Assembly: GCA_027452045.1 (NCBI GenBank)
Contig: DAIDHH010000146.1
Coordinates: 1 to 50,823 of the forward strand
DNA: 50,823 bases
Direction: 5' to 3'
Source of the DNA: Gammaproteobacteria bacterium
GTDB taxonomy: Bacteria; Pseudomonadota; Gammaproteobacteria; Steroidobacterales; Steroidobacteraceae
Below, piece by piece: positions 19,586-38,100 of this stretch; positions within the stretch are counted from its first letter, which is position 1; every line of letters begins with the position of its first letter. The translations under genes were made by a program, and so were the position numbers. Below the pieces are notes generated by a model, which made no database searches, was not told the DNA's origin, and worked only from the letters and a program-made list of their open reading frames with translations.

Positions 19586-19629
19586 TTGACAACTTCCCGC
19601 GGCCAAGTGCACCATCAGAAACCGGTTTC
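19586..19629 (+). promoter_or_regulatory. Promoter and LacI-type operator of the sugar porter-lacI-GH1 unit
   Basis: TTGACA at 19586-19591, an 18-base spacer and a weak -10 CACCAT (19610-19615) are followed two bases later by the perfect palindrome GAAACCGGTTTC (19618-19629), with another ACCGGCCGGT palindrome at 19632-19641. The layout is repeated before the TonB receptor at 23592. The central CG with flanking AAAC/GTTT is typical of LacI-family operators, and the LacI gene lies in the unit this promoter drives. Confidence 0.75.
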
Positions 19630-19683
19630 AGACCGGCCGGTTCCAGCATTCCAGAGCGTCGTTTTCCATCAGTCGGGCACTCT

Positions 19684-21123
19684 ATGGCGGCACCTTCTCG
19701 CAGCATCGGCATTGCCCTTGTGGCGGCGCTCGGCGGGTTCCTCCTCGGCTTCGATGCGACGGTGATCTCCGGAGCGGTGCCGCTCATCCGCGAGTATTTC
19801 GGGCTCGGCGGGGCCGCCGGGAGCCTGCGGCTCGGCTGGGCGGTGAGTTGTCTCGGCTGGGGTGCCATGGCGGGCAATCTCGGCGCAGGCGCGCTGAGCG
19901 ATCGCCTCGGGCGCCGGTCGGTGCTTTGGCTGACCGCAGCGCTGTTTCTCGGCTCCTCGCTCCTCGCGGCCACTGCGCACACCTTCCTCACCTTCATCGT
20001 GGCTCGAGTTCTCGGCGGACTCGCGGTCGGAGCGGCCATTCTCACCGCCCCCCTGTACATCTCCGAGCTCGCGCCGGCTGATCGGCGCGGGCAGCTGGTG
20101 GCCATCAACCAGCTGATGATCGTCATCGGCATCTCGGCGTCGTTTTTCTCCAATGACCTCTTGCTCGCCTCGGGCGCCGGGAGCTGGCGCTGGATGTTCG
20201 GGGTGGAGGCAGTCCCCTCGCTGCTGTTCCTCGCGTTGCTCATGAGGGTGCCGGAGAGCCCGCGCTGGCTCCTCGCCCGGGGCCGCAGGACTCAGGCTCT
20301 CGCGGTCTTGAGCGCCCTCCAGGGATCCGCTGCGGGGAGCGAGCTCGCGCGGATCGAGAGTGTTGTGGCGCTGACTGCGCGCACGGGCCGCTGGTCGGCG
20401 CTGTTCGGCGCGCGTCTGCGCTTCGTCATGGTGTTCGCCGCGGGCCTGGCATTCTTCCAGCAGATCACGGGCATCAACGCCGTCTTCTACTATCTGCCCA
20501 CGATCTTCGCCCAGGCGGGCGGAGGCCTCGCGAGCGCCTTCCGCCAATCGGCGCTGGTGGGGCTCGTCAACGTCGGCATGACGCTCGCCGCCATGCGCTG
20601 GATCGACCGCCTGGGCCGCAAGCCCCTGTTGGTCCTTGGCGCCCTCGGCATGTCAATATCCCTGCTGAGCATCAGCTGGGCGTTTCGATCCGCGGCCGGA
20701 CCGGGCGCCCCGGTCGCCCACCCGGAGCTCGTTCTTGCGGCCATCATGACCTTCGTCGCCTCCTTCGCGATCTCGCTCGGGCCGGTCATGTGGGTGATGG
20801 TGTCGGAGATCTTCCCCAACGGTGAGCGTGCGCTCGCCATCTCGGTCATCGGGTTTTGGAACTCCCTCATCAGCGCCACCGTCACGCTGGTCTTCCCATG
20901 GGAGATACGGCACTGGGGGCCCGCGGGAACCTTTCTCGGTTACGGACTGCTCGCGCTCGCCGCACTGGTGTTCGTCGTGCTGCTAGCTCCCGAGACTCGC
21001 GGCAGGACGCTGGAGGAGATCGAGCAGCTCTTTTCAGGGCGCTCGCCGTGGCATCGCTCGCTTCCGGATCCCGGACAGGACATGAATGCGGCCGAGCAGC
21101 CGGCGCCGAGGGCCGCGGTATGA
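19684..21123 (+). CDS. MFS sugar porter (sugar:proton symporter)
   Basis: A 479-residue, 12-helix transporter of the XylE/GalP sugar porter family. The usual signatures are present: GFLLGFDATVISGA in helix 1, DRLGRRSVL after helix 2, PESPRWLLARGR before the central loop, GLAFFQQITGINAVFYYLPTI in helix 7, DRLGRKPLL, and PETRGRTLEEIE at the C-terminus. ATG at 19684 starts a standard family N-terminus. It overlaps the lacI start by four bases. It is probably the inner-membrane uptake step for the mono- or disaccharide released by the locus. Confidence 0.92.
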   Translation: MAAPSRSIGIALVAALGGFLLGFDATVISGAVPLIREYFGLGGAAGSLRLGWAVSCLGWGAMAGNLGAGALSDRLGRRSVLWLTAALFLGSSLLAATAHTFLTFIVARVLGGLAVGAAILTAPLYISELAPADRRGQLVAINQLMIVIGISASFFSNDLLLASGAGSWRWMFGVEAVPSLLFLALLMRVPESPRWLLARGRRTQALAVLSALQGSAAGSELARIESVVALTARTGRWSALFGARLRFVMVFAAGLAFFQQITGINAVFYYLPTIFAQAGGGLASAFRQSALVGLVNVGMTLAAMRWIDRLGRKPLLVLGALGMSISLLSISWAFRSAAGPGAPVAHPELVLAAIMTFVASFAISLGPVMWVMVSEIFPNGERALAISVIGFWNSLISATVTLVFPWEIRHWGPAGTFLGYGLLALAALVFVVLLAPETRGRTLEEIEQLFSGRSPWHRSLPDPGQDMNAAEQPAPRAAV

Positions 21124-22160
21124 GCGAGCGGATTCCCGAGCGGGGTAAACGCGGGCCAAGGCCGCGTCGCGCTGTCACACTGCGCGTGATTGCCCGCGAG
21201 GCGGGGGTATCGGCCAGCACAGTTTCGCGCATCATCAACGGAACGGTCAAAGTCAGCGACGAGCTCAAGTCGGCCGTCGAAGCGGCGATCACCAAACACG
21301 ACTTTCGTCCCGACGCCGCGGCACGCGGCCTCGCGCTCGGCCGGACGCTCACCATCGGAGTGCTGAGCCAGGCCATCGACAGTCCGTTCTACGCCGAGGG
21401 GCTGCGTGGCGTCGAGCGCCGGCTGCTCGAGGCGGGATATGCGGCCCTGTTCATGAGCGGCAACTGGAACGAGGTGGATGAGGAGCGCTGCCTGCGGGAG
21501 TTCATCGACCGGGGCGTCGATGGCATCATCATGTTCTCCGGTCGCCTGGGTGATGCGGCGGTCAAGGAGTTCGCCAAGCGGGTGCCCGTGGTCGTCACGG
21601 GCCGCAGCCTGCGGGCAGCCCACACGTACAGTCTGCCCATCGACGACCGGCGCGGCGCGTTGCTCGCGATGCGCCATCTGATCGGTATCGGGCACCGGCG
21701 CATCGCCTTTATCGCCGGATCGGAGAATCATCCCGATGCGCTCGAGCGGCTCGCCGGCTATCAGGCGGCCCTCGGCGAGGCCGGCATCCCGTTCGACCCG
21801 CGCCGCGTGGCGAGCGGCGACTGGCACGAGGAAGGCGGCTTGCTCGCGACCTCACGTCTGTTGGAGTCTGGCGTCGACTTCACCGCCATATTCTGTGTCA
21901 ACGACCAGACGGCCTATGGGGCTTACCTGGCGCTTTTCCGCAAAGGGCTCAATGTCCCGAAGGACGTCTCCGTCGTGGGCTTCGACGATCTGCCGGCATC
22001 CTCCTACAGCCTGCCGCCCCTCACCTGCGTGCGCCAGTCCGTGCGCACCCTCGGGGAGCGCGCGGCGGAGGCGGTCCTCGCGCTCATTGCGGGACGGCGC
22101 CCGAGGATAGATTCGCCGCCGGTGGAGATCGTGGTGCGTGACTCCACGCGCCGGATTTGA
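21120..22160 (+). CDS. LacI family transcriptional regulator
   Basis: A 346-residue LacI repressor. The helix-turn-helix (about residues 20-45, VIAREAGVSASTVSRIINGT) is followed by a hinge and a periplasmic-binding-protein-like sensor domain with IGVLSQAIDSPFYAEGLRGVE and VSVVGFDDLPAS. It is translationally coupled to the porter (ATGA overlap) and 56 bases upstream of GH1. Two promoters in the locus carry AACCGGTT-type palindromes, so it probably represses both its own operon and the TonB receptor gene until a sugar ligand binds. Confidence 0.94.
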   Translation: MSERIPERGKRGPRPRRAVTLRVIAREAGVSASTVSRIINGTVKVSDELKSAVEAAITKHDFRPDAAARGLALGRTLTIGVLSQAIDSPFYAEGLRGVERRLLEAGYAALFMSGNWNEVDEERCLREFIDRGVDGIIMFSGRLGDAAVKEFAKRVPVVVTGRSLRAAHTYSLPIDDRRGALLAMRHLIGIGHRRIAFIAGSENHPDALERLAGYQAALGEAGIPFDPRRVASGDWHEEGGLLATSRLLESGVDFTAIFCVNDQTAYGAYLALFRKGLNVPKDVSVVGFDDLPASSYSLPPLTCVRQSVRTLGERAAEAVLALIAGRRPRIDSPPVEIVVRDSTRRI

Positions 22161-22216: not shown

Positions 22217-23578
22217 ATGACCGATTCACGAGCCGGCACTCTGGCGCAGCGCTTTCCACGGGATTTCGTCTGGGGTGTCGCGACCAGCGCCTATCAGATC
22301 GAAGGAGCCGCCACGGCCGATGGCCGGGGTCCGAGCATCTGGGACGATTTCTGCCGCATGCCGGGGATGATCGCCGACGGCTCGAGCGGAGAGAGGGCCT
22401 GTGACCATTACCACCGCCTTTCCGCGGACCTCGATCTGATGCGCCGGCTCGGCATCCCCGCGTATCGTTTCTCGATCGCCTGGCCGCGCATCCAGCCCGA
22501 GGGTGTCGCCGTCAACGAGGCGGGTGTGGCCTTCTACGATCGCCTGGTTGATGGACTGCTCGAGCGCGGCATCACACCATACGCGACGCTCTACCACTGG
22601 GACCTGCCCTCCCGATTCCAACGCGACGGTGGGGGCTGGGCGGATCGCGCGACGGCGCAGGCGTTCGCCGATTACGCGGGCATCCTGGCCGCGCGCCTCG
22701 GCGACCGGGTGAAATCCTTCACCACCCACAACGAGCCGTGGGTGACCGCCACCCTGGGGTACGAGCGGGGTGTTTTCGCGCCCGGTGTGCGCCACCGAGC
22801 TACCGCGCTGCAGGTTTCGCACAACTGTCTGTTGAGTCACGGCTGGGCTGCCCAGGCGATACGCGCCGCGCGGCAGGACGCGCAGGTGGGTATCGTGTTG
22901 AATCTCTCGCCCATCCATCCGGCAAGCGATGCGCCGCAGGACGAGATGCAGGCCAGGCGCGACGACGGCCTGCTGGTGAGGTGGTACCTCGATGCGCTGC
23001 TGCTCGGCCGCTATCCGGATGACGTGCTCGAGTACCTCGGCTGCGATGCGCCGCGACCCGGCGCGGATGACGGCGCGCTCATCGCGCAGCCGCTCGACTT
23101 TCTTGGTGTCAACTTCTACCACCCGCTGATCTCCGGCGCGCAGCGGCGCTGGGTGCCGGCGCGCGAGGGCGCGCCCGTGACCGACATGGGCTGGGAGGTT
23201 TCGCCGCGCGATTTCACGGGACTGCTGCTGCGCCTGCACCGCGACTACCGTCTGCCGCCGCTCTATATCACCGAGAACGGCGCCGCGTACGAGGACCGCC
23301 TGGTGGACGGCGAGATCGAGGACGAGCCGCGCCGCGCCTACCTGGAGTCCCATCTGCACGCGGTGGCGGAGGCCCTGGATCAAGGTGTGGACGTACGGGG
23401 GTATTTCGTGTGGTCGCTGCTGGATAACTTCGAGTGGGCCTTCGGCTACTCCAAGCGGTTCGGCATCGTCCACGTCGACTACACCACGCTGGAGCGGACA
23501 CCCAAACGCAGCGCGCTGTGGTACGCCCAGCTGTTGCGCGCATGCAAAACGTCTGCGCCGGTGCGAGCCCGAGCTTAG
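22217..23578 (+). CDS. GH1 beta-glucosidase, cytoplasmic
   Basis: A 453-residue glycoside hydrolase family 1 enzyme. The N-terminal signature FVWGVATSAYQIEGA (17-31) is present. The acid/base Glu is E173 in HNEPWV, and the nucleophile is E353 in ITENGAAYED. The C-terminal VWSLLDNFEWAFGYSKRFGIVHVD is the conserved aglycone/sugar-binding region. No signal peptide, so it acts on beta-linked disaccharides imported by the porter. It sits 56 bases after lacI and probably shares its transcript. Confidence 0.96.
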   Translation: MTDSRAGTLAQRFPRDFVWGVATSAYQIEGAATADGRGPSIWDDFCRMPGMIADGSSGERACDHYHRLSADLDLMRRLGIPAYRFSIAWPRIQPEGVAVNEAGVAFYDRLVDGLLERGITPYATLYHWDLPSRFQRDGGGWADRATAQAFADYAGILAARLGDRVKSFTTHNEPWVTATLGYERGVFAPGVRHRATALQVSHNCLLSHGWAAQAIRAARQDAQVGIVLNLSPIHPASDAPQDEMQARRDDGLLVRWYLDALLLGRYPDDVLEYLGCDAPRPGADDGALIAQPLDFLGVNFYHPLISGAQRRWVPAREGAPVTDMGWEVSPRDFTGLLLRLHRDYRLPPLYITENGAAYEDRLVDGEIEDEPRRAYLESHLHAVAEALDQGVDVRGYFVWSLLDNFEWAFGYSKRFGIVHVDYTTLERTPKRSALWYAQLLRACKTSAPVRARA

Positions 23579-23591
23579 TGAGGTCCGGCTC

Positions 23592-23650
23592 TTGACAATC
23601 CGGGAGAGCGCGAGCAGTATTTCTGCAACCGGTTTCAGAAACCGCTTGCA
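23592..23650 (+). promoter_or_regulatory. Promoter and LacI-type operator of the TonB receptor gene
   Basis: TTGACA (23592-23597), a 17-base spacer and CAGTAT (23615-23620) are followed by a 27-base near-perfect palindrome at 23624-23650: 13-base arms starting TGCAACCGG and ending CTTGCA, one mismatch, a single central base, and an inner GGTTTC-A-GAAACC. The core repeats the AACCGGTTTC found at 19618. The order and distances match that first promoter. Confidence 0.75.
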
Positions 23651-23711
23651 ACCATGGTACATGCCATGGGGCGGGCGGTGAACAGACAACCAGTCCGAGG
23701 GGGAATTCAGC

Positions 23712-26708
23712 GTGAATGAGACCAAGAACACCCGACGCCGCGGCGAGCGGCGCGCGGGAGGCGTGGCGGCCACGGCGCAACTGAAGGCCATGTCCGTGCC
23801 CGTGGCCGTGCTGATGGCGATCCACGGTCCGGCGGTGCTCGCCGCGCAGAAGCCGCAGCCGCAGCCGCAATCGCAGCCGCAATCGCAGTCGCAATCGCAG
23901 TCGTCACAGCAGCCGCCCGTCGCGCCGCCGACGCTCGAGGAGGTCACCGTCACGGCACTGCGCCAGTCGCTCATCAATTCCGAGGCGATCAAGCGCCGCA
24001 GTTTCGGCATCGTCGATGCCGTCACGGCCGAGGACATCGGCAAATTTCCGGACACCAATCTCGCCGAGGCCATCCAGCGCATCCCCGGCGTGACCATCGA
24101 CCGCGTGGACGGGGAAGGGTCGCGCATCACCGTGCGCGGCTTCGGTCCGGAATTCAACCTCGTGCTGCTCAACGGCCGCGAAATGCCGGGCGCGATAAGT
24201 CCCGACTCGGCCTCAGCCACCCGCTCGTTCGATTTCGCGAACCTCTCGCCGGTGGGCATCTCGCGCATCGAAGTATACAAAACGGGTCGCGCCGACCTGC
24301 CCTCGGGCGGCATCGGCGCCACGGTGAACATCGTCACGCCCCGGCCATTCGACTACCACGGCCTGCAGGCCACCGCCGAGGTGCTGGGGAACGACGACAC
24401 CTCCACCCGTATCGGCTCGAAGGTGACTCCCTCCGTCGCGGCGCTGCTCAGCGATACCTTCTTCCATCGACGCCTCGGGTTGCTGCTCAGCGGCTCCTAC
24501 GACAAGCGCAACAGCTCGCAGCAGTTCGCTGACGTCGGCGGCTGGCTCGAGAACCCGGCGCTCGGCACCGCGACCGTCACGAACAACAACCAGAACCCCT
24601 ACGGCAACTACTGGGGGCCGCAGAGCGAGGATTGGGGCTTCTACGATCACCAGCGCGTGCGCAAGAACGGTCAGGTCGTGCTGCAGTTCCGGCCGTTCGA
24701 TTCGGTGGTGGCCACCACCGACTACACCTACTCGCTGTTCGAGGACAACCAGCAGCGTCACTCCATGGGCGCCTGGTTCGGCTATGGCGGCGACCTCACC
24801 AGCGCCACCATCAACAACGAGGGCACCATCACCAATCTCGTGGACGCCGGCAACGATCTGTCCTATTTCGCTTCGGACGACCACTTCCGCGACGAAGGCA
24901 AGTCGGCCGGGGTCAACGTGAAGTGGCAGGCGACCGATGACCTGCTGTTCACCCTGGATGCGCACCACTCGTCCGAGACCTCGGGCGGCGGTCCGGGGGG
25001 CAACAACTCGTTCTTCATCGTCGGGCAGCAGCCGGCCCTCTCGATCTCCAAGATCTTCACCGACACCGGCACTCAGATCCCGCTCACAACCTGGACCTAC
25101 CAGGCGCCGTACTCGGTGAACAACCTCGGCACGAGCACCATCTCGCCACTGTTCGCCCAGGCGAACTCCACCAACTTCAGCAACGTAATCCGCCAGGTGC
25201 AGCTCGACGGGCAGTGGACCAATCCCTCGGACGGCCTGTTGCGAGAGATCAAGGGCGGCATCGATCGCACCAACTTCAGCACCGACGCGGCAAGCTACAA
25301 TTCCTTCTACCCAACGGGATTCTACAATCCCGCCAACGATGGACTGCTGCCTGCGGCTGACTTCACGAGGATCTCCTCGTGCAGCATCCTGCAGAGCTTC
25401 AGCGGCGGCGGCTGCGGCATCCAGGTCCCGTACTTCTACTCGTTCAACCTGCCGCAGGCGGTAGCGGCCACCACCGGGACGTTCAATTACCAGTTCGTGG
25501 TGCCGACCACACCCACCAATGACGATCACATCCGCGAGCGCACGGATGCCGCGTTCGTGCAGATGAGCCTGGGTACCAACATTCTCGGCCGCAGGTTCAA
25601 GGCGCTCGTAGGCCTGCGCTACGAACACACCTTCATCACCGCGAACAGCCTGGAGGAAGTCCCGACTGCAATCTCGTGGGACAACCCCACGGAGTTCCAC
25701 ACCATCTACTCCGCGAACGCGGCCTACTCGGACATCCGACGCTCCTACCACGAGTTGCTGCCGAACATCGACACCAGTTTCCGGGTCGTGCGCAACGTGC
25801 TGCTGCGGGCCTCCTTCAGCAAGACCATCACCCGGCCGGATCTCACCCAGATGGTTGGCACGACCTCGGTCTCCTCGACCCCGAAGCCGGGCGCGCGCAC
25901 GGCGACCGCCGGCAACCCCGGCCTGATGCCCTACACCTCCCGCAATTACGACCTGGCAGTGGAGTGGTACCCGACGCCGGACGACTATGCCTCGGTGAAC
26001 TGGTTCATGAAGAAGGTGAGCAACTTCCTCACCGAAACCACCACGCAGCAGTCGCTCTACGGCATCACCGATCCGGCCAACGGGGCGCTCGCCAAGACCG
26101 CGGAAGCCCAGCTCGCCGCCGCCGGCCAGCCGCTCACCGCCGCCAATGTATTCAACCAGATGGTCGCGGACACCGGCCAGAGCTCCTTTACGGGCCAGCC
26201 CGGCGATCCGCTCGTGATCTGGGACGTTACGGCCCCGAGCAATGCGAACGAGACCGAGATCCGCGGATTCGAGTTCGCCGTGCAGCACATCTTCGGAGAC
26301 AGCGGTTTCGGCCTCCAGGCGAACCTCTCTCTGCCGACCGGCAGCGCCTCATTCAACAACGAGGCGATCGGCTCGCAGTTCGCGCTGCCCGGTCTCAGCA
26401 AGTCGTACAATATCGTGGCCTTCTACGAGAAGTATGGCTTCCAGATGCGGCTCGCCTGGACGCATCGCAACGCGTATCTGACGGCGTTAAGTCAGTCGCA
26501 GTCGGCCAACGAGCCGCAGTACGTTGCGGCCTACGGCCAGCTCGACATGAGTGCGAGCTACGCCTTCAACGAGCACTGGTCGGTGCTGTTCAACGCCATC
26601 AACCTCAATTCGGCCTCCGAGCGCTTCTACGGCCGCTATCGGGATCAGTTCCTGTACGCCTACGAGCAGGACCCGCGCTTCCAATTCGGGGTACGCTTCA
26701 GAGAGTAG
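23712..26708 (+). CDS. TonB-dependent receptor, glycan-locus type
   Basis: Outer-membrane receptor of 998 residues. A basic N-terminus and a hydrophobic export signal ending near VLAAQ precede a low-complexity linker of Gln/Pro/Ser pairs (about residues 49-72). A TonB-box-like LEEVTVTAL and the plug domain follow (KFPDTNLAEAIQRIPGVTIDR, ITVRGFGPEFNLVLLNGREMPG, DLPSGGIGATVNIVTPRPF), then the beta-barrel ending in an aromatic-rich strand (FQFGVRFRE). This sequence type is the one common in sugar-induced receptors of Caulobacterales and Xanthomonadales. It would import an oligosaccharide released outside the cell. It is preceded by its own LacI-type operator. Confidence 0.95.
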   Translation: MNETKNTRRRGERRAGGVAATAQLKAMSVPVAVLMAIHGPAVLAAQKPQPQPQSQPQSQSQSQSSQQPPVAPPTLEEVTVTALRQSLINSEAIKRRSFGIVDAVTAEDIGKFPDTNLAEAIQRIPGVTIDRVDGEGSRITVRGFGPEFNLVLLNGREMPGAISPDSASATRSFDFANLSPVGISRIEVYKTGRADLPSGGIGATVNIVTPRPFDYHGLQATAEVLGNDDTSTRIGSKVTPSVAALLSDTFFHRRLGLLLSGSYDKRNSSQQFADVGGWLENPALGTATVTNNNQNPYGNYWGPQSEDWGFYDHQRVRKNGQVVLQFRPFDSVVATTDYTYSLFEDNQQRHSMGAWFGYGGDLTSATINNEGTITNLVDAGNDLSYFASDDHFRDEGKSAGVNVKWQATDDLLFTLDAHHSSETSGGGPGGNNSFFIVGQQPALSISKIFTDTGTQIPLTTWTYQAPYSVNNLGTSTISPLFAQANSTNFSNVIRQVQLDGQWTNPSDGLLREIKGGIDRTNFSTDAASYNSFYPTGFYNPANDGLLPAADFTRISSCSILQSFSGGGCGIQVPYFYSFNLPQAVAATTGTFNYQFVVPTTPTNDDHIRERTDAAFVQMSLGTNILGRRFKALVGLRYEHTFITANSLEEVPTAISWDNPTEFHTIYSANAAYSDIRRSYHELLPNIDTSFRVVRNVLLRASFSKTITRPDLTQMVGTTSVSSTPKPGARTATAGNPGLMPYTSRNYDLAVEWYPTPDDYASVNWFMKKVSNFLTETTTQQSLYGITDPANGALAKTAEAQLAAAGQPLTAANVFNQMVADTGQSSFTGQPGDPLVIWDVTAPSNANETEIRGFEFAVQHIFGDSGFGLQANLSLPTGSASFNNEAIGSQFALPGLSKSYNIVAFYEKYGFQMRLAWTHRNAYLTALSQSQSANEPQYVAAYGQLDMSASYAFNEHWSVLFNAINLNSASERFYGRYRDQFLYAYEQDPRFQFGVRFRE

Positions 26709-26729
26709 CGTTCCCCGCGCTCGAGCGGC

Positions 26730-27752
26730 TCACTTTCCGCGGGTGAGTCGCTCGAGCAGTGCGGCGCGGATGCGTCCGGCGGCGTCGGCCGTGAGATCCC
26801 CGAACAGGCCGCGCCGCTCGGGCGGCAGATGATCGAGCGCCGCGCCGGGCTGGAAGATGAGGTAGTCGAACAACGCCTGCCAGCGCGCGCGCTGCGCCGC
26901 CGGCAGACCCTTTACGCTGAGTAGGCAATGCAGCAGGCTGTGCATCGGTGGCTCGCAGAACTCCGGGACGTCCTGCCACCAATAGTTCACCAGCACGTTG
27001 AACGGCTCGAGTCCCTCGACCGCGTGCCACCACAGCGCCGGTATGTAGATGGCATCTCCTGGCAGCAACTCGGCGGTCTCGGCATGCGCAAGCGCTGCGG
27101 CATAACGAGGGAAGCGCTCGAGATCGGGCCGGCGTATGTCGACCAGGCTGATCGGCTGGCCGGCGGGCGTGTGATCGAGTGGCCCGATGTACAGGTTTGC
27201 CACCTGCTCCATGGGAAACACCGTGAAGCGGCGTCGGCCGCCTACCACACACGCGATGTTCTCGCTGGCATCGAAATGCGGGGCGACGAAGGTGCGGTTG
27301 CCGATCCAGATCGACTCGAGGGGCGCGTGGGCGCCTATCAGGGCAGGTGGTGGATGAACAGCGGAAAAGCCAGGCAGGTAGATCGGGATCGACACCGAGC
27401 CGCTGTAGAGCGTTGGGGGCTGCGGCGCATCGAGCAGTTCCATCAGCCGCCCGATGACCTCCCCGAGCGGCGCGCGACCGCTCTTGAAATTGAAGCCCGT
27501 CAGCGTCTCATCGTAGAAGAAGCGGCCCTCGGCCTGCGCGCTCGCCTCGAAGAGGGGCACAGGCACCCCGGAGTACATCGAAAGCAGATACTGCGCGAGC
27601 GCCGCGGCGGACGTGCGGCCGGCGTTGACCGCGGGCCATCCGGCGGCAAGTCCCCGCAGCACCGCAGGGCGCCCGCTCGGCAGGATGCGCGTTCTGAAGG
27701 TCTCGGCGTCGACGTCGTGCCATTCGGCGACGGGTGTTGCGGCGGGGGTCAT
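26730..27752 (-). CDS. Cupin-8/JmjC-like Fe(II) oxygenase domain protein
   Basis: A 340-residue protein of the JmjC/cupin_8 fold. The iron facial triad is visible: H159 and D161 in VAPHFDASENI and H243 in IPALWWHAVEG, with the conserved GRRRFTVFPMEQ strand between. Related enzymes hydroxylate protein side chains or small molecules using 2-oxoglutarate. It is encoded on the opposite strand between the receptor and SapC, divergent from SapC over about 70 bases. Such proteins recur with SapC and tryptophan-halogenase-like genes beside TonB receptors, but the substrate is unknown. No signal peptide, so it is cytoplasmic. Confidence 0.85.
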   Translation of the reverse strand: MTPAATPVAEWHDVDAETFRTRILPSGRPAVLRGLAAGWPAVNAGRTSAAALAQYLLSMYSGVPVPLFEASAQAEGRFFYDETLTGFNFKSGRAPLGEVIGRLMELLDAPQPPTLYSGSVSIPIYLPGFSAVHPPPALIGAHAPLESIWIGNRTFVAPHFDASENIACVVGGRRRFTVFPMEQVANLYIGPLDHTPAGQPISLVDIRRPDLERFPRYAAALAHAETAELLPGDAIYIPALWWHAVEGLEPFNVLVNYWWQDVPEFCEPPMHSLLHCLLSVKGLPAAQRARWQALFDYLIFQPGAALDHLPPERRGLFGDLTADAAGRIRAALLERLTRGK

Positions 27753-27820
27753 GGGAGGCCGTGCGCTATGATGTGGCCCGGCGATTCTAGCGTAGTCAAC
27801 GTTATGTGGAGGAGGGGTTC

Positions 27821-28573
27821 GTGACGCATTGGGTGGAGCTCGATCCGGCCGCGCATCGAGACTTGCGCGTCATCACCAATGCCTCGGCACGCTTCGGCGA
27901 TGACATCGGGGTGTTGAGCGTTCTACCTTGCGAATATCCGCGGCTGCTCGCGCACTATCCCATCCTGTTCCGCAAGAGCGCGCAGACCGGACGGTTCGAA
28001 CCGGCGGCGCTGTTGGGTTTCAGCGGCCGTGAGAACCTGTTTCTATCCGGGGACCGTTGGGACGCCGAGTACGTGCCACTGCAGGTGCAGCGACAGCCGT
28101 TCACCGTCCTGCCGCCCGCCGGGGGCGAGGACGCGCTACGCATCGCCTTCGATGCCGAGAGTCCCAGGATGACGGCGGCGGTGCAGGCTCCGGCCGGCGC
28201 CCAGGCGCTCTTCACGGATCGAGGTCAACCGAGCGCATACCTGCAGCGCATCGCGGGCATCCTGCGGACCTTCACCCAGGGCGCGATCGAGGCGCTCGAT
28301 TACGCCGCGGCGCTGGCCGGACTCGATCTCATCGAGCCGGTGAGCATCGACGTGCAGTTCGTCGATGGCAGCAAGGCAGCCCTGCACGGTCTTTACACCA
28401 TCGACTCGGACCGCCTGAAGTCTTTGCGGGCAGAGGCGTTCCTCGGCCTGCGCGATCGCGGCTACCTGCAATGGGCGTATTTCCAGCTCGCCTCGCAGTC
28501 GCAGCTCGCCGCTCTGGTGGCGCGCAGGAATCGGCGGCTGACCGGGCTTGCGACGCGGTCCCAGGACCCGTGA
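27821..28573 (+). CDS. SapC family protein
   Basis: A 250-residue SapC-domain protein. It has the characteristic HWVELDPAAHRDLRV N-terminus, FARFGDDIGVLSVLPCEYPRLLAHYPILFRK-type core (residues about 20-50) and DGSKAALHGLYTIDSDRLKSL near residue 185. The name comes from a Campylobacter S-layer locus; in proteobacterial glycan loci its job is not known. The GTG at 27821 lies five bases after AGGAGG; an earlier GTG at 27806 is less likely because the ribosome site would fall inside the gene. The stop TGA is immediately followed by the ATG of the halogenase-like gene, indicating a single operon. No signal peptide. Confidence 0.88.
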   Translation: MTHWVELDPAAHRDLRVITNASARFGDDIGVLSVLPCEYPRLLAHYPILFRKSAQTGRFEPAALLGFSGRENLFLSGDRWDAEYVPLQVQRQPFTVLPPAGGEDALRIAFDAESPRMTAAVQAPAGAQALFTDRGQPSAYLQRIAGILRTFTQGAIEALDYAAALAGLDLIEPVSIDVQFVDGSKAALHGLYTIDSDRLKSLRAEAFLGLRDRGYLQWAYFQLASQSQLAALVARRNRRLTGLATRSQDP

Positions 28574-30133
28574 ATGAGTGCTCTCGGGCAACCCGTCAAA
28601 CGAGTCCTCATCGCCGGCGGTGGCACGGCCGGCTGGATCACGGCCGGCGTGCTCGCCGCGCGTTATCCGCGCCGTGGCCCCGATGGGATCGAGATCACGC
28701 TGCTCGAGTCGCCGGGGCGTCCGCCCATCGGTGTTGGCGAGGGCACCTGGCCGACGTTGCGTACCACGCTGCAGCAGATCGGCATCTCCGAGACCGATCT
28801 GCTGCGCCAGTGCGACGCCTCGTTCAAACAGGGCTCGCAATTCAACGGCTGGGAGGATGGCGATGAACGTCACGGCTATCTGCATCCGTTCACAGCGCCC
28901 GCGGCGTTGTCGGGGCAGATGCTGGCCCCGCATTGGATCGAGGACCCGCCGGCCGCCTTTGCTGAGGCGGTGTGTTACCAGAGTGCGCCGGCTCTTCAGG
29001 GCTGTGCGCCGAAGCTGATCACCACCCCCGAGTATGCAGGTCTCGCCAACTACGCATATCACCTGGACGCCGGCAAGTTCGCGGGCCTGCTCAAGGAGCA
29101 CTGCACGGCGCGGCTCGGGGTGCGGCACGTGCTCGATGAGATCATCGACGTCGAGTCAGCCGAGGATGGTGACATCCGGCGGCTGCGCACTCGAGCCGGG
29201 GCCTCTCTGGAGGCTGATCTGTATGTCGATTGCACGGGGCTCGCTTCGCGTCTGATCGGTCAGCATTTCGGACGGGCGCTGCTCTCGAGGCGCGATGTGT
29301 TGTTCGTGGACAGGGCATGGGCCACGCAGGCGCCCCATGCCGATGAGGCGGCGCCGATCGCTTCGCTCACGGTCTCGACGGCGCGCCGGGCCGGCTGGAT
29401 ATGGGACATCGCGCTGCCACACCGGCGCGGCATCGGGCACGCATATGCGAGCGGCTACCTCTGCGATGAGGCGGCTCTCGAGGAACTGCGGGATTACCTG
29501 CGAATCCGGGGGCTGCTCGCCGACACGCTCGCCTTTCGCCGCCTCGAGATCAATCCCGGATTTCGTGACGAGTTCTGGGTACGCAATTGCGTGGCCGTCG
29601 GGTTGTCGGCGGGCTTCCTGGAGCCGCTGGAAGCGTCCGCGATAGTGATGGTCGAGCTCTCGGCACAGATGATTGCCAATCTCCTGCCGCGAACGCGTTC
29701 CGCCATGCATCAGGCGGGCATCGCGTTCAACCGCGCGTTCCGCTACCGCTGGGAACGCGTCGTCGAGTTCCTGAAGCTGCACTATGCGCTCAGCCGGCGC
29801 GAGGATTCTGATTTCTGGCGCGACAACCGCCGGCCCGAGACCCTTCCCGGGGAACTCGCAGCGCGGCTCGCGTACTGGCGCTCACAATGTCCCGGACATG
29901 ATGAGTTCCTCCATCGCGAGGAGGTGTTTTCGGCGGCGAGTTACCAATACGTGCTCTACGGGATGGGGTTCGAGACTGCGCCCGCCCCATGGGCGCTCAG
30001 TGAGCCTTCGCGTGCCCTGGCTCGGGAGCAGTTTGCCGCCACCGGCCGCCGCGCGCGGGAGCTGTGCGCCCAGCTTCCCCGCAATCGCGATCTGTTGGAT
30101 CGCATCCGGCGCTTCGGCCTGCAGCGCATCTGA
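28574..30133 (+). CDS. Tryptophan-halogenase-like flavoprotein
   Basis: A 519-residue protein of the flavin-dependent tryptophan halogenase family. The FAD-binding GGGTAGWITA (15-24) and GVGEGTWPTL are clear. K85 in SFKQGSQFNGW is placed like the catalytic lysine of PrnA, and FLEPLEASAI carries the Glu next to the active site. The halogenase fingerprint WxWxIP is present only as GWIWDIALP, with Ala for Pro. No separate flavin reductase is nearby. Members in TonB-receptor loci form a group whose substrates are mostly unknown. It is sandwiched between SapC and GH3, overlapping the latter's region at TGATG. Halogenation itself is unproven. Confidence 0.88.
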   Translation: MSALGQPVKRVLIAGGGTAGWITAGVLAARYPRRGPDGIEITLLESPGRPPIGVGEGTWPTLRTTLQQIGISETDLLRQCDASFKQGSQFNGWEDGDERHGYLHPFTAPAALSGQMLAPHWIEDPPAAFAEAVCYQSAPALQGCAPKLITTPEYAGLANYAYHLDAGKFAGLLKEHCTARLGVRHVLDEIIDVESAEDGDIRRLRTRAGASLEADLYVDCTGLASRLIGQHFGRALLSRRDVLFVDRAWATQAPHADEAAPIASLTVSTARRAGWIWDIALPHRRGIGHAYASGYLCDEAALEELRDYLRIRGLLADTLAFRRLEINPGFRDEFWVRNCVAVGLSAGFLEPLEASAIVMVELSAQMIANLLPRTRSAMHQAGIAFNRAFRYRWERVVEFLKLHYALSRREDSDFWRDNRRPETLPGELAARLAYWRSQCPGHDEFLHREEVFSAASYQYVLYGMGFETAPAPWALSEPSRALAREQFAATGRRARELCAQLPRNRDLLDRIRRFGLQRI

Positions 30134-30156
30134 TGCCCGTTGGAGAGTTTCAAGCG

Positions 30157-32403
30157 ATGAGCGTGTCCAGACTGGTCCCGTGCATTCTGCTGCTGTGCGC
30201 GATCGCGCCCGTGCGGGTCATCGCCTCGGGCGTCCCGGCCGCGGATGCCGTGCGCCCGTGGCTTGACCCTGGGCTTTCGCCGGGGGAGCGGGCGCGGCTT
30301 GCGGTGCGGGCGATGAGCGAGGGGGAGGAGCTCTCGCTGGTATTGGGGGACTTTGGGTCGGTGATGGCGCAGAAGGGGTATCGGCCGCCGGCGGGTGCGC
30401 GCATGGGGTCGGCGGGGTATGTGCCTGGGATTGCGCGACTTGGGATTCCGCCGCAGTGGATTTCGGATGCGGGGCTGGGTGTTGCGACGCAGCGTGCCTC
30501 GAGGGATGCATACCGAGAGCGCACGGCGCTGCCCTCCGGGTTGGCGACGGCGGCGACGTGGAACGTGGGGCTGGCGCAGCGCGGGGCGGCGATGATCGGT
30601 GCGGAGGCGCGTGCTTCGGGGTTTGACGTGTTGCTTGGGCCGGGTGCGGACCTGGTGCGCGAGCCGCGCGGGGGCCGGGACTTCGAGTACGCGGGGGAGG
30701 ATCCGCTGCTGGCGGGGATGATGGCGGGGGCGCAGATCCGCGGGATCCAGTCGCAGCACGTGATTGCGGTGCTCAAGCACTTTGCGCTGAACGATCAGGA
30801 GACCGGGCGCACGGTGCTGAGTGCGGACATTGCGCGGGGGCAGGCGCGGATGTCGGATCTGCTGGCCTTTGAGCTGGCGATCGAGCAGGGGCATCCCGGG
30901 GCGGTGATGTGCGGGTACAACCGGGTGAACGGGCAGTACGACTGTGAGAACCGGTGGCTGCTCGATGAGGTGCTGAAGGGGGACTGGGGGTATCGGGGGT
31001 ATGTGATGTCCGACTGGGGCGCGGTGCACAGCACGGTGCGCTCGGCGCTCGCGGGGCTGGACCAGGAGTCGGCATACACCTTCGATGAGAAGCCGTATTT
31101 TGGGGCGCCGCTTGCGGAGGCGGTGCGCACGGGGCGGGTGCCGCGGGAGCGTGTGGATGAGATGGCGGAGCGGATTGTGCGCACGCTCTTTGCGGTGGGG
31201 GTGGTGGATCATCCGATCGACCCTGAGGCGAGGATCGAGTTTGGGGCCGACCGGCGGGTGGCCGAGGCCGATGAGGCGCAGGGGATCGTGCTGCTGAAGA
31301 ACGCGGGAGGGATATTGCCGCTGGCGCGCACGGTGAAGCGATTGGTGGTGATTGGCGGGCATGCCGACCGCGGGGTGATGAGCGGCGGGGGCTCCTCGAC
31401 GGTGTTTCCGGTGGGAGGCGACGCGGTGGCGGGTGTGGGGCCTGCGGGGTGGCCGGGGCCGGTGGTGTACCTGCCCTCGTCCCCGCTTGGGGCGATGATG
31501 GGGGAGGCGCCGCAGGCGAGGATCCGGTATGTGTCGGGGCGGGACGTGGCGCAGGCGGTGCGCGCGGCGAAGTGGGCGGATCGGGTGGTGGTGTTTGCGA
31601 CGCAGTGGGCGGCGGAGAGCGAGGATGTTTCGCTCACGCTGCCGGGCGGGCAGGATGCGCTCATAGAGGCGGTGGCGCGGGCGAACCCGCACACGGTGGT
31701 GGTGGTGGAAAGCGGCGGTCCGGTGCTGATGCCGTGGGTGTCGCAGGTGGCGGGGCTGCTCGAGGCGTGGTACCCGGGGAGCGGCGGGGGAGAGGCGATT
31801 GCGCGGGTGTTGTTCGGGACGGTGGATCCGTCCGGGCACCTGCCGGTGAGTTTTCCGAGAAGGCTCGCGCAGCTGCCGCACCCGCGGCTGGCGGGAGCGG
31901 GGCTGGCGGCGAACCGGCCGTTTGAGGTCCGCTACAGTGAAGGGGCGGCGGTGGGGTACAAGTGGTACCAGCGTGAGCGTCTCACGCCGCTTTTTGCCTT
32001 CGGGTATGGGCTGTCGTACACGCGCTTCGGGTACGGTGACCTGCGGGCGCGGGTGCGCAACGGGCAGCTCGTGGTCACCTTCACGGTGAGCAACCTCGGG
32101 CAGCGCTCGGGTCGGGCGGTGGCGCAGGTGTACGTGGGACCGAAGTCCTGGCGCGCGCTCGGATGGGAGGCGCCGCGGCGGCTCGGGGGCTGGTCGAAGG
32201 TATCGCTCGCCCCGGGAGCCTCGCGCACGGTGAGGCTCACGGTCGATCCGCGGCTGCTCGCGGTGTTTGATTCCCGTGCGCAGCGCTGGGAGCGATCGCC
32301 CGGACCGTACGAGGTGTGGCTCGGGGACTCCTCGGACCCTCTCGGCCCGCCCACCGTGGTGAGCCTGCCCGCCTGGCAGCATAGTGCACGGTGGAATGAA
32401 TGA
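30157..32403 (+). CDS. GH3 beta-glucosidase, exported
   Basis: A 748-residue glycoside hydrolase family 3 enzyme. A signal peptide (about residues 1-25) is followed by the GH3 barrel with LLGPGADLVREPRGGRDFEYAGEDP, KHF (207-209) and the nucleophile D286 in YVMSDWGAV. The alpha/beta sandwich and a C-terminal fibronectin-III-like domain (FGYGLSYTRF onward) follow. It would trim beta-linked oligosaccharides in the periplasm. ATG at 30157 has GGAGAG upstream and starts the signal peptide; an ATG at 30133 overlaps the previous stop. From about 30270 to 32020 the codons are unlike the neighbours: Gly mostly GGG, Phe mostly TTT, very high G on the coding strand. Confidence 0.93.
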   Translation: MSVSRLVPCILLLCAIAPVRVIASGVPAADAVRPWLDPGLSPGERARLAVRAMSEGEELSLVLGDFGSVMAQKGYRPPAGARMGSAGYVPGIARLGIPPQWISDAGLGVATQRASRDAYRERTALPSGLATAATWNVGLAQRGAAMIGAEARASGFDVLLGPGADLVREPRGGRDFEYAGEDPLLAGMMAGAQIRGIQSQHVIAVLKHFALNDQETGRTVLSADIARGQARMSDLLAFELAIEQGHPGAVMCGYNRVNGQYDCENRWLLDEVLKGDWGYRGYVMSDWGAVHSTVRSALAGLDQESAYTFDEKPYFGAPLAEAVRTGRVPRERVDEMAERIVRTLFAVGVVDHPIDPEARIEFGADRRVAEADEAQGIVLLKNAGGILPLARTVKRLVVIGGHADRGVMSGGGSSTVFPVGGDAVAGVGPAGWPGPVVYLPSSPLGAMMGEAPQARIRYVSGRDVAQAVRAAKWADRVVVFATQWAAESEDVSLTLPGGQDALIEAVARANPHTVVVVESGGPVLMPWVSQVAGLLEAWYPGSGGGEAIARVLFGTVDPSGHLPVSFPRRLAQLPHPRLAGAGLAANRPFEVRYSEGAAVGYKWYQRERLTPLFAFGYGLSYTRFGYGDLRARVRNGQLVVTFTVSNLGQRSGRAVAQVYVGPKSWRALGWEAPRRLGGWSKVSLAPGASRTVRLTVDPRLLAVFDSRAQRWERSPGPYEVWLGDSSDPLGPPTVVSLPAWQHSARWNE

Positions 32404-32516
32404 CATGACTTCGCGCGCCTGGTGCCCGAGAACTGGCGTCGACCATACCCCGCCGCACGCGTGCCCCAGCACATTGCACGGGTACCCTCGCCCTAGTCTG
32501 CCTTTTCGGATTAATA

Positions 32517-32530
32517 TGATAACGGTATCA
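32517..32530. promoter_or_regulatory. Palindrome before the SGNH hydrolase gene, candidate operator
   Basis: TGATA-ACGG-TATCA, a five-base inverted repeat around a CG-containing centre, lies 16 bases before the ATG at 32547 in an AT-rich patch (ATTAATATG). It resembles LacI-family operators from sugar loci but differs from the AACCGGTT motif at the other two promoters, so a different regulator may bind it. Confidence 0.4.
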
Positions 32531-32546
32531 ATCCGCGGAGAAGACC

Positions 32547-33839
32547 ATGGGCGACGCTGGAACTGACGGGCAGGGACGGAGCGCTGGGCGCTCGAGACTC
32601 AGGACGGCGAGCGGCTTGATCGCGGTGCTCGCCTGTGCGGTGCCGTCCGCGTGGGCGGCAAGTCCGGCGACCCACTGGATCGAGGCCTGGTATTCCCCGC
32701 CCGTGGCGCCGGCACCCATCTGGGGCGGCAACCAGGTCCGCACCTTCGACCATCAAACCGTCCGCCAGGTGGTGAGGCTCGAGGCCGGCGGTCAGGAGGT
32801 TCGCATACGGCTCACCAATGAGCTCGGCCGCTCGGCGTTGCAGGTGAGCGAGGTTCGCATCGCGCTCACTTCGCCGAACGGGGTGACGGAGGCTGCGACC
32901 GATCACCTCGTCACCTTCGGGGGCAAACGCAGCGCGGTCTTGGTGCGCGGCCAGGCGCTCGTGAGCGACCCCATCGACATGACCGTGCGGCGTTTTCAGA
33001 ACCTCGCCGTCTCGATCTATTTCTCCGGGCGCGTGACGCCGAGCGGCCATCTGCACCAGGTTCTGATCTCACCGCCCGGCGATCATGCGGCGCAGTCCGA
33101 CTGGCCCCGAGCCAACCTCGAACAGGCGCCGGGCATTGCGAGCGGCGTCGAGGTCAAGTCCGACGCGGCGCGGCCTGTGCTGGTGGCCTTCGGGGATTCG
33201 ATCACGGAAGGGTACTGCGCGACGGCGGGGACGCATCGGGATTACCCCGAGCAGCTGGCCCGGCTGCTCGCGCGCCAGCCGGCGGATCGCGGCTGGGTGG
33301 TGATCAACTCCGGGATCAGCGGCAACCAGGTGCTGCGCGATGGCGCGGGGCCGAAGGCGCTGTCGCGCTTCGGGCGCGACGCGCTCGACATCCCGGGCGT
33401 GCGCGCCATCGTGTTGCTCGAGGGGATCAACGACATCGGCGGTCAGGACGGGCCGCAGGGGCATCGCGATCTGTCCGCCGCGACTCTCATCGCCGCCTAC
33501 CGTGAGTTGATTCGCCGCGCGCACGCGAAGGGACTCGAGATCTACCTCGGCACGCTGACTCCGTACGAGGGTGCGGGCTACTACAGCGCCGCGGGTGAAC
33601 GGGTGCGGGAGCAGGTGAACGCCTGGATCCGCGAGGCCCGGGGATTTGATGGCGTGATCGATTTCGACGGCGCGCTGCGCGACCCGGCTCACCCCAGGCA
33701 CTTCATCGGCGCCGATGAGTGCTCCGATGAGCTTCACCCGAACGATGCCGGCTATCGCTTGATGGCGCAGACGGCATGGCGGCAATTGTTCGCCCCCGGG
33801 GCGCCGCTCTCGGGTGCCGCCAGCGCCCAAGGGCGATAG
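32547..33839 (+). CDS. Exported SGNH/GDSL hydrolase (esterase/lipase family)
   Basis: A 430-residue protein. The hydrophobic segment SGLIAVLACAVPSAWA near residues 22-37 is an export signal preceded by a long basic N-region. A beta-rich N-terminal domain (about 40-200) is followed by the SGNH domain: block I FGDSITEGY with S218, block II NSGISGNQ, block III EGINDI with N295, and block V DELHPNDAGY with D394 and H397. It would remove acyl groups from a secreted or periplasmic glycan, fitting its place beside GH3. It has its own candidate operator, so it may be a separate transcript. Confidence 0.9.
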   Translation: MGDAGTDGQGRSAGRSRLRTASGLIAVLACAVPSAWAASPATHWIEAWYSPPVAPAPIWGGNQVRTFDHQTVRQVVRLEAGGQEVRIRLTNELGRSALQVSEVRIALTSPNGVTEAATDHLVTFGGKRSAVLVRGQALVSDPIDMTVRRFQNLAVSIYFSGRVTPSGHLHQVLISPPGDHAAQSDWPRANLEQAPGIASGVEVKSDAARPVLVAFGDSITEGYCATAGTHRDYPEQLARLLARQPADRGWVVINSGISGNQVLRDGAGPKALSRFGRDALDIPGVRAIVLLEGINDIGGQDGPQGHRDLSAATLIAAYRELIRRAHAKGLEIYLGTLTPYEGAGYYSAAGERVREQVNAWIREARGFDGVIDFDGALRDPAHPRHFIGADECSDELHPNDAGYRLMAQTAWRQLFAPGAPLSGAASAQGR

Positions 33840-35128: not shown

Positions 35129-38100
35129 GTGAGATTCGCCACAGCTTTGCTCGTCCTCGGAACGGCCACGGCCCTGGTGGCCCACGCCGATTCCTCACCG
35201 ACGGCTTCGAGAGCCGCGCGCCTCGTGCCAGCGGCGGCCCCTGCCGCCGTGAATCCCGCCGATTACCAGGCGCTCACCTGGCGGCTGATCGGGCCGTTTC
35301 GCGGTGGTCGAGTGTTGGCGGTCACCGGCATTCCCGGCGACACCCGTCATTTCTACTTCGGCTCGGTCGACGGCGGGGTCTGGGAAACCGCAAATGCCGG
35401 TCGCACCTGGCAGCCGATTTTCGATCACGAGCCGGTCGGTTCCATCGGTGCGATCGCCATCGCCCCCTCGCAACCGAATACGATGTACGTCGGCACGGGC
35501 GAGGCGGACATGCGCTCGGACATCGCTCAGGGCGATGGCATGTACCAATCGACCGACGGCGGTGAGCACTGGACCCACATCGGTCTGACGGACACCCGGC
35601 AGATCGCCCGTATCATCGTCGATCCCAACGATCCCGAGCGCCTGTTCGTCGCCGCGCTGGGCCATCCATACGGCCCGAACGCCGAGCGCGGCGTGTTCCG
35701 CTCGGACGACGGAGGTCAGCACTGGCGCAAGGTGCTCTACCTGAATCCCAACACCGGGGCGGTGGACGTGGCTTTCCAGCCAGGCAATCCTGACACGGTC
35801 TACGCGGCGATGTGGCAGACGCGACGCCCGCCGTGGAGCGTATATCCGCCCTCCAATGGTCCGGGCAGCGGCCTGTACGTGTCTCATGACGGCGGCAATC
35901 ATTGGACGCAGATCGTCGGGAATGGCTTCCCCGCCCACCCGGGACGCATCGGGCTCGCGGTCGCCCCGACCAATCCCAAGCGCCTCTACGCGCTCGTCGC
36001 GGGCGGCTGGAAGAGCGGTGGGTTGTATCGCTCGGATGACGGTGGCGTCCACTGGCGGCACGTCTCCCGTGACCAGCGCATCTTCGGCCGCGGCTGGTAT
36101 TTCTGCTCCCTCACCGTCGATCCGAGCGATGCCGACAGGGTGTACGTGATGAACACCATCGTGCTGCGATCCGATGACGGTGGCGCCCACTTCATCGCTC
36201 TCAAGGGCGATCCGACCGGAGACGACTTCCACCAGCTGTGGATCGATCCGACCGACACCGAGCGGATGATCCTCGGGAGCGATCAGGGCACCCAGATCAC
36301 CGTCGATGGCGGCAAGACCTGGAGCAGCTGGTACAACCAGCCCACGGCGCAGATCTATCACATCAGCACCGACAACCGCTTCCCCTACTGGGTATACGGA
36401 GCGCAGCAGGATTCCGGCGCGGTGGCGCTGCCGAGCCGCACCATGACCTACGACGGCATCACCATGGAGCAGTTCCACGAGATTAGCCCGGGCGGGGAGA
36501 ACGGCATGATCGCCCCCGATCCGAAGCACCCGTGGCTCATCTACGGGGACGGCACGGGCGAGACCACCACCGTGCAGAAGCTCGACCTGCATACCACCCA
36601 GGTGCGCGAAGTCGATCCGACGCTGGCCTATCCGGGCGTGCACTACCGGACGGCCTGGACGCTGCCGCTCGTGTTCTCGCCCCATGATCACAAGACGCTC
36701 TACTTCGCCGACCAGCGGCTCTTCAGCACCGCCGATGGCGGCCTGCACTGGCGGCGCGTCAGCCCCGATCTGACTCGCCCCGAGGCCGGCATCCCGCCGA
36801 ACCTCGACCCGGTGACCGCCGCGGACAATGACCACGCCGGCAAGCGCTCGGGCGTCGTCTACTCCATTGCGCCATCGCCGTTCAGCACGCGCATCATCTG
36901 GGCCGGCACCGACGATGGCCTGGTGTGGCGCACGCAGGATGGCGGCCGGCACTGGAGCAACGTCACGCCGAAGGCGCTCACCCCCTGGTCAAAGGTGGCC
37001 GGCATCGAGCTGTCGCATTTCCAGCGCGGCACCGCCTACCTCGCCGTCGATCGACATCGCCTCGATGACGAGACGCCCTACATCTACCGCACGACCGATG
37101 ACGGCAAGACCTGGATGCGCATCGACTCCGGGATCCCGCGCAAGGACTTCGTCAATGTGGTGCGGGAGGACCCGGTCACGCCGGGGCTGCTCTACGCCGG
37201 CACCGAATACGGAGTGTTCGTTTCCTTCGATGACGGGGGGCAGTGGCAATCCCTGCAGCAGAACCTGCCGGTGACCTCGGTGCGCGACATCAAGGTGCAC
37301 GGTGATGACCTGGTTCTGGCGACGCACGGCCGCGGCATCTGGATCATGGATGACATTACCGCGCTCAGGCAGATGAGCAGCGTCCACGCGGGCGTCGCCA
37401 CACTGTTCAAGCCTGCCGTGGCCATCCGTGTCAGGCCGCTGTCTTTCACCGGCACACCCTTCCCCAAGGACGAGCCCACGGCCGCCAATCCGCCCAACGG
37501 CGCCATCATCGACTACGCGCTGCCGCGCGGGGTCAAGGGGCCCGTCACGGTCAGTATCCTCGACGCACGGGGCGGCCTCGTGCGCCGCTACAGCAGCGAA
37601 GAGCGCGTGGCGGCGCCCGATCCGGCCACCCTCAAGTACGCGCCGGAGTGGGTCGAGCCGCCAATGATTCCCTCGGCAGCACCCGGCATGCAGCGTCTCG
37701 TGTGGGGTTTGCATTACGCAAAGCCCGAGGCGCCGGATGCGAAGGGGCCGCAACAGCCGGGCGTCTGGGCGCCGCCAGGGACCTATACCGTCGAGTTGAC
37801 GGTAGACGGCCACGAGTATCGCCAGCCGCTCCTCGTCAGATCCGATCCGCGCGTTAAAGTGTCGGCGGCGGCGCTGCAGCGTCAGTTCGAACTCGCGCGT
37901 GAGGTGGAGCAGGACCGATTCCAGGCCGACACGGCCATCGCGGCCTCGATCAAGCTGCTCGATGCGCTCGATACCCGTATGGCCTCGGCGGGACCAGCGC
38001 GTGCGGCGGTGGCCGCTCTCCTTACGCGAGCCAAGAATCTCTCCGGGGAGCGGCCCTTCCCTGATCACGATACGGCCTCTGTGATGATGACGCCCCACAA

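Follow-up and report, generated by a model that had tools for sequence, protein, structure and literature searches.

A TonB receptor-linked module of SapC, a FIH-like cupin and flavin-dependent halogenases as a candidate receptor-modifying system

Carbohydrate utilisation loci with a TonB-dependent receptor (CUT loci) have been described in Xanthomonas and Caulobacter, where they combine the receptor with degradative enzymes, an inner-membrane sugar transporter and a regulator (PMC1790865). A second point of comparison is provided by flavin-dependent halogenases (FDHs). BrvH and the Xanthomonas FDHs accept indoles in vitro and are reported with no known native substrate (PMC5945002, PMC7336383); free tryptophan is not a substrate of these enzymes (PMC7336383). 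BrvH (PDB 6frl) prefers bromide and is encoded next to a second FDH (PMC5945002), and the related structure 2pyx is described as unpublished (PMC7336383). The third is QhpG, a halogenase-related flavoprotein that dihydroxylates a protein tryptophan in the cytoplasm before export; its substrate channel is the counterpart of the halogenase HOCl tunnel (PMC7876137).

The window analysed here, a stretch of 50,823 nucleotides from a gammaproteobacterial assembly that is 75% complete, contains a locus of the CUT type, in which a TonB-dependent receptor, glycosidases, a sugar transporter and a regulator occur together. It differs from the described CUT loci in a trio of additional genes, encoding a SapC-family protein, a Cupin_8 oxygenase and an FDH, which have 0 occurrences in the main text of PMC1790865 and are constant partners of the receptor here. 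The families themselves are already known and routinely annotated. We found no paper on the combination or its role in the open-access literature searched; where PMC11337851 mentions tryptophan halogenase transcripts (phage, Colwellia) and receptors, it does so in separate places and not as a module.

A CUT-type locus with three additional genes

The features of the locus, as positions in the window, are the following.

19617..19630, no strand: LacI-type operator-like palindrome with 1 mismatch, 5' of the sugar transporter
19684..21123, plus strand: MFS sugar porter (PF00083, 331 bits; TIGR00879, 324 bits, cut-off 237.8); its frame P0012 opens at 19477, with ATG 19684 the likely start
21120..22160, plus strand: LacI-family regulator (PF00356 and Peripla_BP_3); its frame P0008 opens at 20856, and ATG 21120 overlaps the MFS stop
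22217..23578, plus strand: GH1 beta-glucosidase (TIGR03356, 591.6 bits, cut-off 478.5)
23624..23637, no strand: LacI-type operator-like palindrome TGCAACCGGTTTCA, 5' of the receptor
23712..26708, plus strand: TonB-dependent receptor P0002, TonB-Xanth-Caul class (TIGR01782, 572 bits, cut-off 310)
26730..27752, minus strand: Cupin_8/JmjC-type oxygenase P0003, FIH-like (PF13621, 215 bits)
27821..28573, plus strand (open frame 27806-28573): SapC-family protein P0004 (PF07277, 198.1 bits, cut-off 28.9)
28574..30133, plus strand: FDH homologue P0005, HAL1 lineage (PF04820, 377.5 bits, cut-off 21)
30157..32403, plus strand: GH3 glycosidase P0006 (PF00933/PF01915), likely start ATG 30157
32547..33839, plus strand: SGNH/GDSL hydrolase P0007 (PF13472, 105 bits), a locus neighbour

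A first-pass annotation of this DNA had placed the receptor, an opposite-strand cupin-8 gene, SapC, a halogenase-like gene, GH3 and an SGNH hydrolase together, and every named gene was found. It had also described SapC, the halogenase-like gene and GH3 as abutting or overlapping. This holds for SapC and the FDH, with a spacing of 0 nt; the FDH and GH3 frames are separated by a 23-nt gap with ATG 30157 or overlap by 1 nt with ATG 30133, depending on the GH3 start. For SapC, GTG 27821 is the likelier start, lying directly 3' of GGAGGAGGGG as judged by eye. The cupin gene converges on the receptor gene, the two frames lying 21 nt apart, and is divergent from SapC. The GH3 protein, which by eye has a hydrophobic stretch at its N-terminus, is a locus neighbour outside the module core. 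Downstream of the locus, positions 35129-38320 encode a 1063-aa protein with sortilin/BNR repeats (PF15902).

The receptor frame opens at 23712, and position 23592 is that of an upstream TTGACA hexamer; a scan for the sigma-70 consensus promoter gave no match. TGCAACCGGTTTCA at 23624 is the sole exact match to TGNAACCGGTTNCA in the assembly. At 2 mismatches, three or more matches to the palindrome occur in the window and also in 5 of 100 shuffles. Because the palindrome precedes the receptor gene and its exact form is not repeated elsewhere in the assembly, the adjacent LacI protein may exert control through this putative operator.

Recurrence of the trio and its receptor

The cupin was surveyed with a profile of the linked cupins against 398 Pseudomonadota genomes, and members of this subfamily were found at 62 places in 33 of them. 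Within 5 kb, 40 of the 62 places had both SapC and an FDH, 13 had an FDH only and 9 had neither, compared with chance expectations of 0.39 for SapC, 1.39 for an FDH and 0.01 for both. Co-occurrence, which had been proposed as a check on the locus, is thus far above chance. The 40 places are spread over 28 genomes, so that the trio occurs in about 7% of those sampled. SapC (PF07277) was present in 32 of the 33 cupin genomes versus 138 of the 398 overall (Fisher p 3e-15), and the genes lie close together, with a gap of at most 160 nt between cupin and SapC in 38 of the 40 places and between cupin and FDH in 34 of the 40.

These 40 places correspond to 38 loci, two of which have a second cupin, and the addition of L050, from Bowmanella dokdonensis, gives 39 loci with SapC, cupin and FDH. 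A receptor was present in all 39, which had not been picked for it; recognition was by profiles grown from P0002, so that other receptor types count as absent. This agrees with the earlier observation that the trio recurs beside the sugar-type TonB receptor class. In SapC's direction, the receptor is the first gene of the unit in 38 of the 39 loci. The order is receptor-SapC-cupin-FDH in 18 loci and receptor-FDH-SapC-cupin-FDH in 11, the remainder being variants; the trio cupin is inverted in the window alone, and in one locus the FDH and receptor are divergent from SapC-cupin. Receptor, SapC, cupin and FDH almost certainly form a real, heritable module. A scan of genome contigs with a single protein as query returned one locus, and a search of viral contigs with one SapC gave no match. 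One stretch (L156) has a receptor of the trio group with a cupin, but neither SapC nor an FDH.

Two matches each to SapC and Cupin_8 were found in the window's own assembly, forming two pairs that adjoin an FDH, one in the window and one on contig C31. Three FDH pairs of the same assembly lie beside other TonB receptors (L014, L016 and L017, on contigs C31, C92 and C193), and no SapC or cupin match was found in these three stretches.

The window SapC scores over the cut-off for Pfam SapC (PF07277) and belongs to that family, whose name was presumably taken from a Campylobacter surface-array gene. SapC was sampled as 60 neighbourhoods, one each for 60 of the 78 SapC genera among the matches listed, omitting two places near contig ends; with the window, L013 and L050 added (n = 63), 18 had an FDH, and among these 18 a receptor was found in 17 and a cupin in 12. 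The SapC tree contains one clade (support 100/98) in which 13 of 13 rows are FDH- and receptor-linked and 12 have the cupin, as well as a second group of five rows, four with FDHs and receptor but without cupin and the fifth near a contig end. Unlike most sampled PF07277 rows, the clade of the window SapC has an FDH and a receptor beside it. PDB sequence searches with SapC gave no convincing relative, with best E values of 0.29 and 1.5, and a structure model built from two sequences had a pLDDT of 39.4, too low to be of use.

Of 98 SapC loci, 45 lack every partner by these profiles, and SapC is therefore not confined to this role. Eleven of the 45 partnerless loci have genes for other exported proteins at most 5 kb away and the remaining 34 do not; because of these eleven, the data fit a role for SapC as a general accessory for export-bound proteins. 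The same eleven loci are also compatible with a different target, namely another envelope or regulatory protein (a TonB/ExbB partner, a periplasmic glycosidase or SapC itself) to which the receptor would only be linked, and FIH and QhpG do have protein substrates. We consider such a target unlikely. The most widespread non-module neighbour, a GH3 cluster, is found in 24 of the 39 loci versus 39 of 39 for the receptor, and no aromatic residue distinguishes trio SapC, with H12, E38, N72, D111 and S225 common to partnerless SapC as well.

In these eleven loci, with cluster members named after one scanned representative, SapC is near RTX-type exoproteins at L052, L060 and L110, near a giant gene at L056, L063, L073 and L076, with an ShlB-type gene in the first three, and near another TonB receptor at L061, L091, L094 and L107.

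Active sites of the module enzymes

K85 and E353 of the window FDH align with the catalytic Lys and Glu of the tryptophan 5-halogenase 8fov; the equivalent pair of PrnA we take to be K79 and E346. Both residues are kept in 72 of 73 FDH genes of SapC loci. At the WxWxIP site, which we take to be the motif of flavin-dependent tryptophan halogenases, W275, W277 and I279 are present, with Ala in place of Pro. The closest solved relative is 2pyx (E 6.7e-150; 503 bits versus 240 for 6frl), which shares with the window FDH the Ala after the catalytic Glu. BrvH, Xcc4156 (presumably PDB 6y1w) and 2pyx belong to the same protein family as the window FDH, which differs from them in being part of a largely SapC-linked lineage. 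The NCBIfam QhpG model matches the window FDH weakly, at 23.6 bits against a cut-off of 240 (E 2.1e-5).

In a FastTree phylogeny of 116 FDHs, the HAL2 lineage has 36 members, 35 of them within 2.6 kb of SapC and mostly 3' of the cupin; members of HAL1, which includes the window FDH, lie mostly between receptor and SapC. A separate branch holds 36 of the 47 FDHs that have no SapC within 2.6 kb. In loci without SapC, five of 43 FDHs have neither the Lys nor the Glu (Arg/Gly, for example): L146:7853-9478, L147:7960-9711, L149:10738-12270, L155:7842-9725 and L165:16589-18202. All five are in cupin+FDH loci with three or four FDH frames each and, judged by these substitutions, are possible pseudo-halogenase partners.

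The cupin has an HxD...H iron site, as do FIH and JMJD5, which are both protein hydroxylases; each of the 62 cupins from the fetched loci has H159, D161 and H243, together with N165. Among PDB entries, the family profile is matched best by FIH, which hydroxylates protein residues (E 1.4e-26, over positions 23-263 of the 338 in the profile). The place aligned with the 2-oxoglutarate-binding Lys of FIH, K214, is Arg174 in the window and Arg in 62 of 62 cupins. Because of this replacement we class the protein as a FIH-like Cupin_8 and not as FIH. Arg174 might serve in place of the Lys.

A further protein, DUF6445 (PF20043), occurs in 15 fetched module loci as 17 frames (for example L062:12943-13680), that of L050 being split, and in 11 of these loci its frame overlaps a same-strand FDH frame or is no more than 40 nt from one. 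H124, D126, H216 and R234 are invariant in 14 aligned rows, and HxD...H...R is the pattern of Fe/2-oxoglutarate oxygenases. DUF6445 may therefore be an iron/2-oxoglutarate oxygenase and a further oxidative enzyme of the module. A PDB search gave no convincing relative (best E 1.4), and a DUF6445 search of the window's assembly gave no match, with control genomes equally silent.

Candidate substrates of the module

One alternative is that the trio produces or alters a small aromatic compound, such as a signal or cofactor derived from indole or phenol, whose production is coupled to sugar uptake; the receptor would then only be co-regulated or import the precursor of the product. The characterised FDH relatives do halogenate free indoles in vitro (PMC5945002, PMC7336383), the catalytic residues of the module FDHs are intact, and sugar genes and LacI are in the same locus. 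We nevertheless regard this alternative as doubtful, since neither a metabolite pathway nor any natural-product family appears among the 25 most frequent of 121 and of 101 families in the two halves of the 196 flanking genes scanned (one neighbour set, A5, omits two of 99 genes, one FDH and one cupin). The top flanking families are instead GH3, GH1, LacI and MFS, with GH67, GH16 and GH127 also among the 25 most frequent Pfam families. No biosynthetic genes are annotated next to one receptor-trio unit, that of a Sphingomonas parapaucimobilis plasmid, over the stretch covered, and it would be uncommon for a pathway of this kind to contain a FIH-like oxygenase. A RiPP precursor gene was considered and rejected: among 1808 small frames within 4 kb of the 39 modules, only one family occurs in at least three loci, comprising 3 frames in 3 loci. 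The absence of such families among the commonest flanking ones, and of a conserved small peptide frame, bears out the first-pass view that this is not a natural-product pathway.

Beta-glucoside and xylan genes predominate around the 39 loci, with BLAST clusters of GH3 in 24, LacI in 15 and GH1 in 8 loci. Plasmid units with the full trio adjoin xylan genes and an SGNH hydrolase, GH16/GH3/GH43 (in Sphingobium sp. RAC03), GH8/GH3 or GH3, and plasmid units with SapC and FDH but without cupin adjoin GH3, an agarase or GH95. The receptor-SapC-cupin-FDH unit of the S. parapaucimobilis plasmid has no glycan enzyme annotated up to 9 kb from the cupin; the stretch covered extends 4.9 kb upstream of the receptor and 7.5 kb downstream of the FDH, and the gene tables for the plasmids are incomplete. 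In all nine plasmid loci the receptor matches a profile built from the window receptor, with scores of 738-1077 bits, and of 989 bits for S. parapaucimobilis.

This spread of neighbours bears on the proposal that the enzymes act on glycan-borne aromatics (feruloyl esters, aryl glucosides), for detoxification or access. GH1, GH3 and an SGNH hydrolase do lie beside the window trio, and the xylan locus with an SGNH hydrolase has all four module genes. However, because the unit occurs with differing glycan enzymes and once with none annotated, a glycan-borne aromatic group, one of the targets first suggested, is weakened; with the GH3 cluster confined to 24 of the 39 trio loci and its low correlation with the module, we consider it very unlikely.

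In a FastTree phylogeny of 74 receptors, the trio label requires 3 changes versus 20.7 when shuffled, and receptor type follows module type. Mantel correlations of protein distances across 38 loci were 0.72 for SapC-receptor, 0.67 for cupin-receptor and 0.61 for FDH-receptor, and within the trio 0.69 for SapC-cupin and 0.47 for both SapC-FDH and cupin-FDH; operon linkage alone would raise the receptor values. In the 23 trio loci with GH3, the correlations with the receptor were 0.80 (SapC), 0.72 (FDH) and 0.71 (cupin), compared with GH3 values of 0.25 (receptor), 0.27 (SapC), 0.32 (cupin) and 0.17 (FDH), which may be lowered by the use of the nearest member of one BLAST cluster, possibly mixing GH3 subfamilies. 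The 15 loci with LacI gave 0.49 for both receptor-LacI and SapC-LacI, 0.77 for SapC-receptor and 0.56 for cupin-receptor.

Because FDH profile A3 mixed two lineages (the window and L013 rows being HAL1 and the other 11 rows HAL2), the test was repeated on fewer loci. Without the window, L013, L115 and L124 (34 loci), FDH-receptor was 0.44. When L118, with a HAL1-type FDH, was also removed (33 loci, one lineage), the values were 0.79 for FDH-receptor, 0.69 for SapC-receptor and 0.61 for cupin-receptor, and in the 19 of these loci with GH3 they were 0.85, 0.80 and 0.54, with receptor-GH3 at 0.14. Speaking against a tie to the receptor, across 11 same-genome module pairs SapC-cupin was 0.81, with only weak values for SapC-receptor (0.24) and cupin-receptor (0.22). 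L133, a near copy of L132, was dropped from the correlations and the receptor-residue analysis, and L125 from the latter. Linkage and correlations indirectly favour the receptor over any one glycan, in keeping with the suggested tie to receptor function.

A plasmid of Novosphingobium sp. KACC 22771 (L168) has the order and orientation of the window, inverted cupin included. Identity to the window is 52% for the receptor, 50% for the cupin, 48% for the FDH and 42% for SapC, compared with 29% for GH3 and 28% for LacI, and in two further Novosphingobium records cupin and SapC are in the same divergent position. On these comparisons, the four genes were retained or transferred together across classes, and GH3 and LacI were not. 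Within the receptor, W656 of P0002 is the most diagnostic aromatic of trio receptors (35/37); it was rejected as a motif for the enzymes, as it marks the receptor group and does not track the presence of one enzyme.

In a rough test for a signal-type hydrophobic stretch before the domain, 1 of 39 SapC, 0 of 41 cupins and 0 of 54 FDHs scored, compared with 24 of 42 receptors; the test misses many true signals, 18 of the 42 receptors being under the threshold. Since signal-like stretches are nearly absent from them, SapC, cupin and FDH are probably cytoplasmic. The kept Lys and Glu of the FDH suggest halogenation, and the FIH-like site of the cupin suggests protein hydroxylation. QhpG offers a precedent for a halogenase-related flavoprotein acting on a protein before export, although it hydroxylates, acts on a small cross-linked subunit and matches the window FDH only weakly in sequence.

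From the constant linkage to the receptor, the probably cytoplasmic enzymes, their kept sites, the QhpG precedent and the occurrence of SapC near exported-protein genes, we infer the receptor as substrate, the halogenation and hydroxylation chemistry and the role of SapC. The module is set inside a beta-glucoside utilisation locus, and in the favoured mechanism both oxygen-dependent enzymes would act in the cytoplasm. SapC would be an accessory that holds or presents the receptor precursor, the FDH would halogenate, perhaps brominate, residues of the precursor and the FIH-like oxygenase would hydroxylate others; the modified receptor would then undergo Sec export and outer-membrane insertion. 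We put at roughly 40% the probability that a cytoplasmic module halogenates and/or hydroxylates, ahead of export, either the receptor or something associated with it. It is more tentative still that this is a dedicated post-translational system that both halogenates and hydroxylates TonB receptors or export-bound precursors, which would consist of SapC, the FIH-like oxygenase and one or two FDHs, with DUF6445 as an extra in some bacteria.

The constant linkage to the receptor names one testable candidate substrate and a small set of genes for deletion. If the receptors proved to be unmodified, strains lacking these genes would assign the trio to a metabolite pathway. If the proposed mechanism is correct, the substrate-less halogenases of carbohydrate loci would gain a native role, halogenation would become a regular bacterial protein modification, and the module would carry out a bacterial protein modification of a new class, one that affects how nutrients are taken up at the cell surface.
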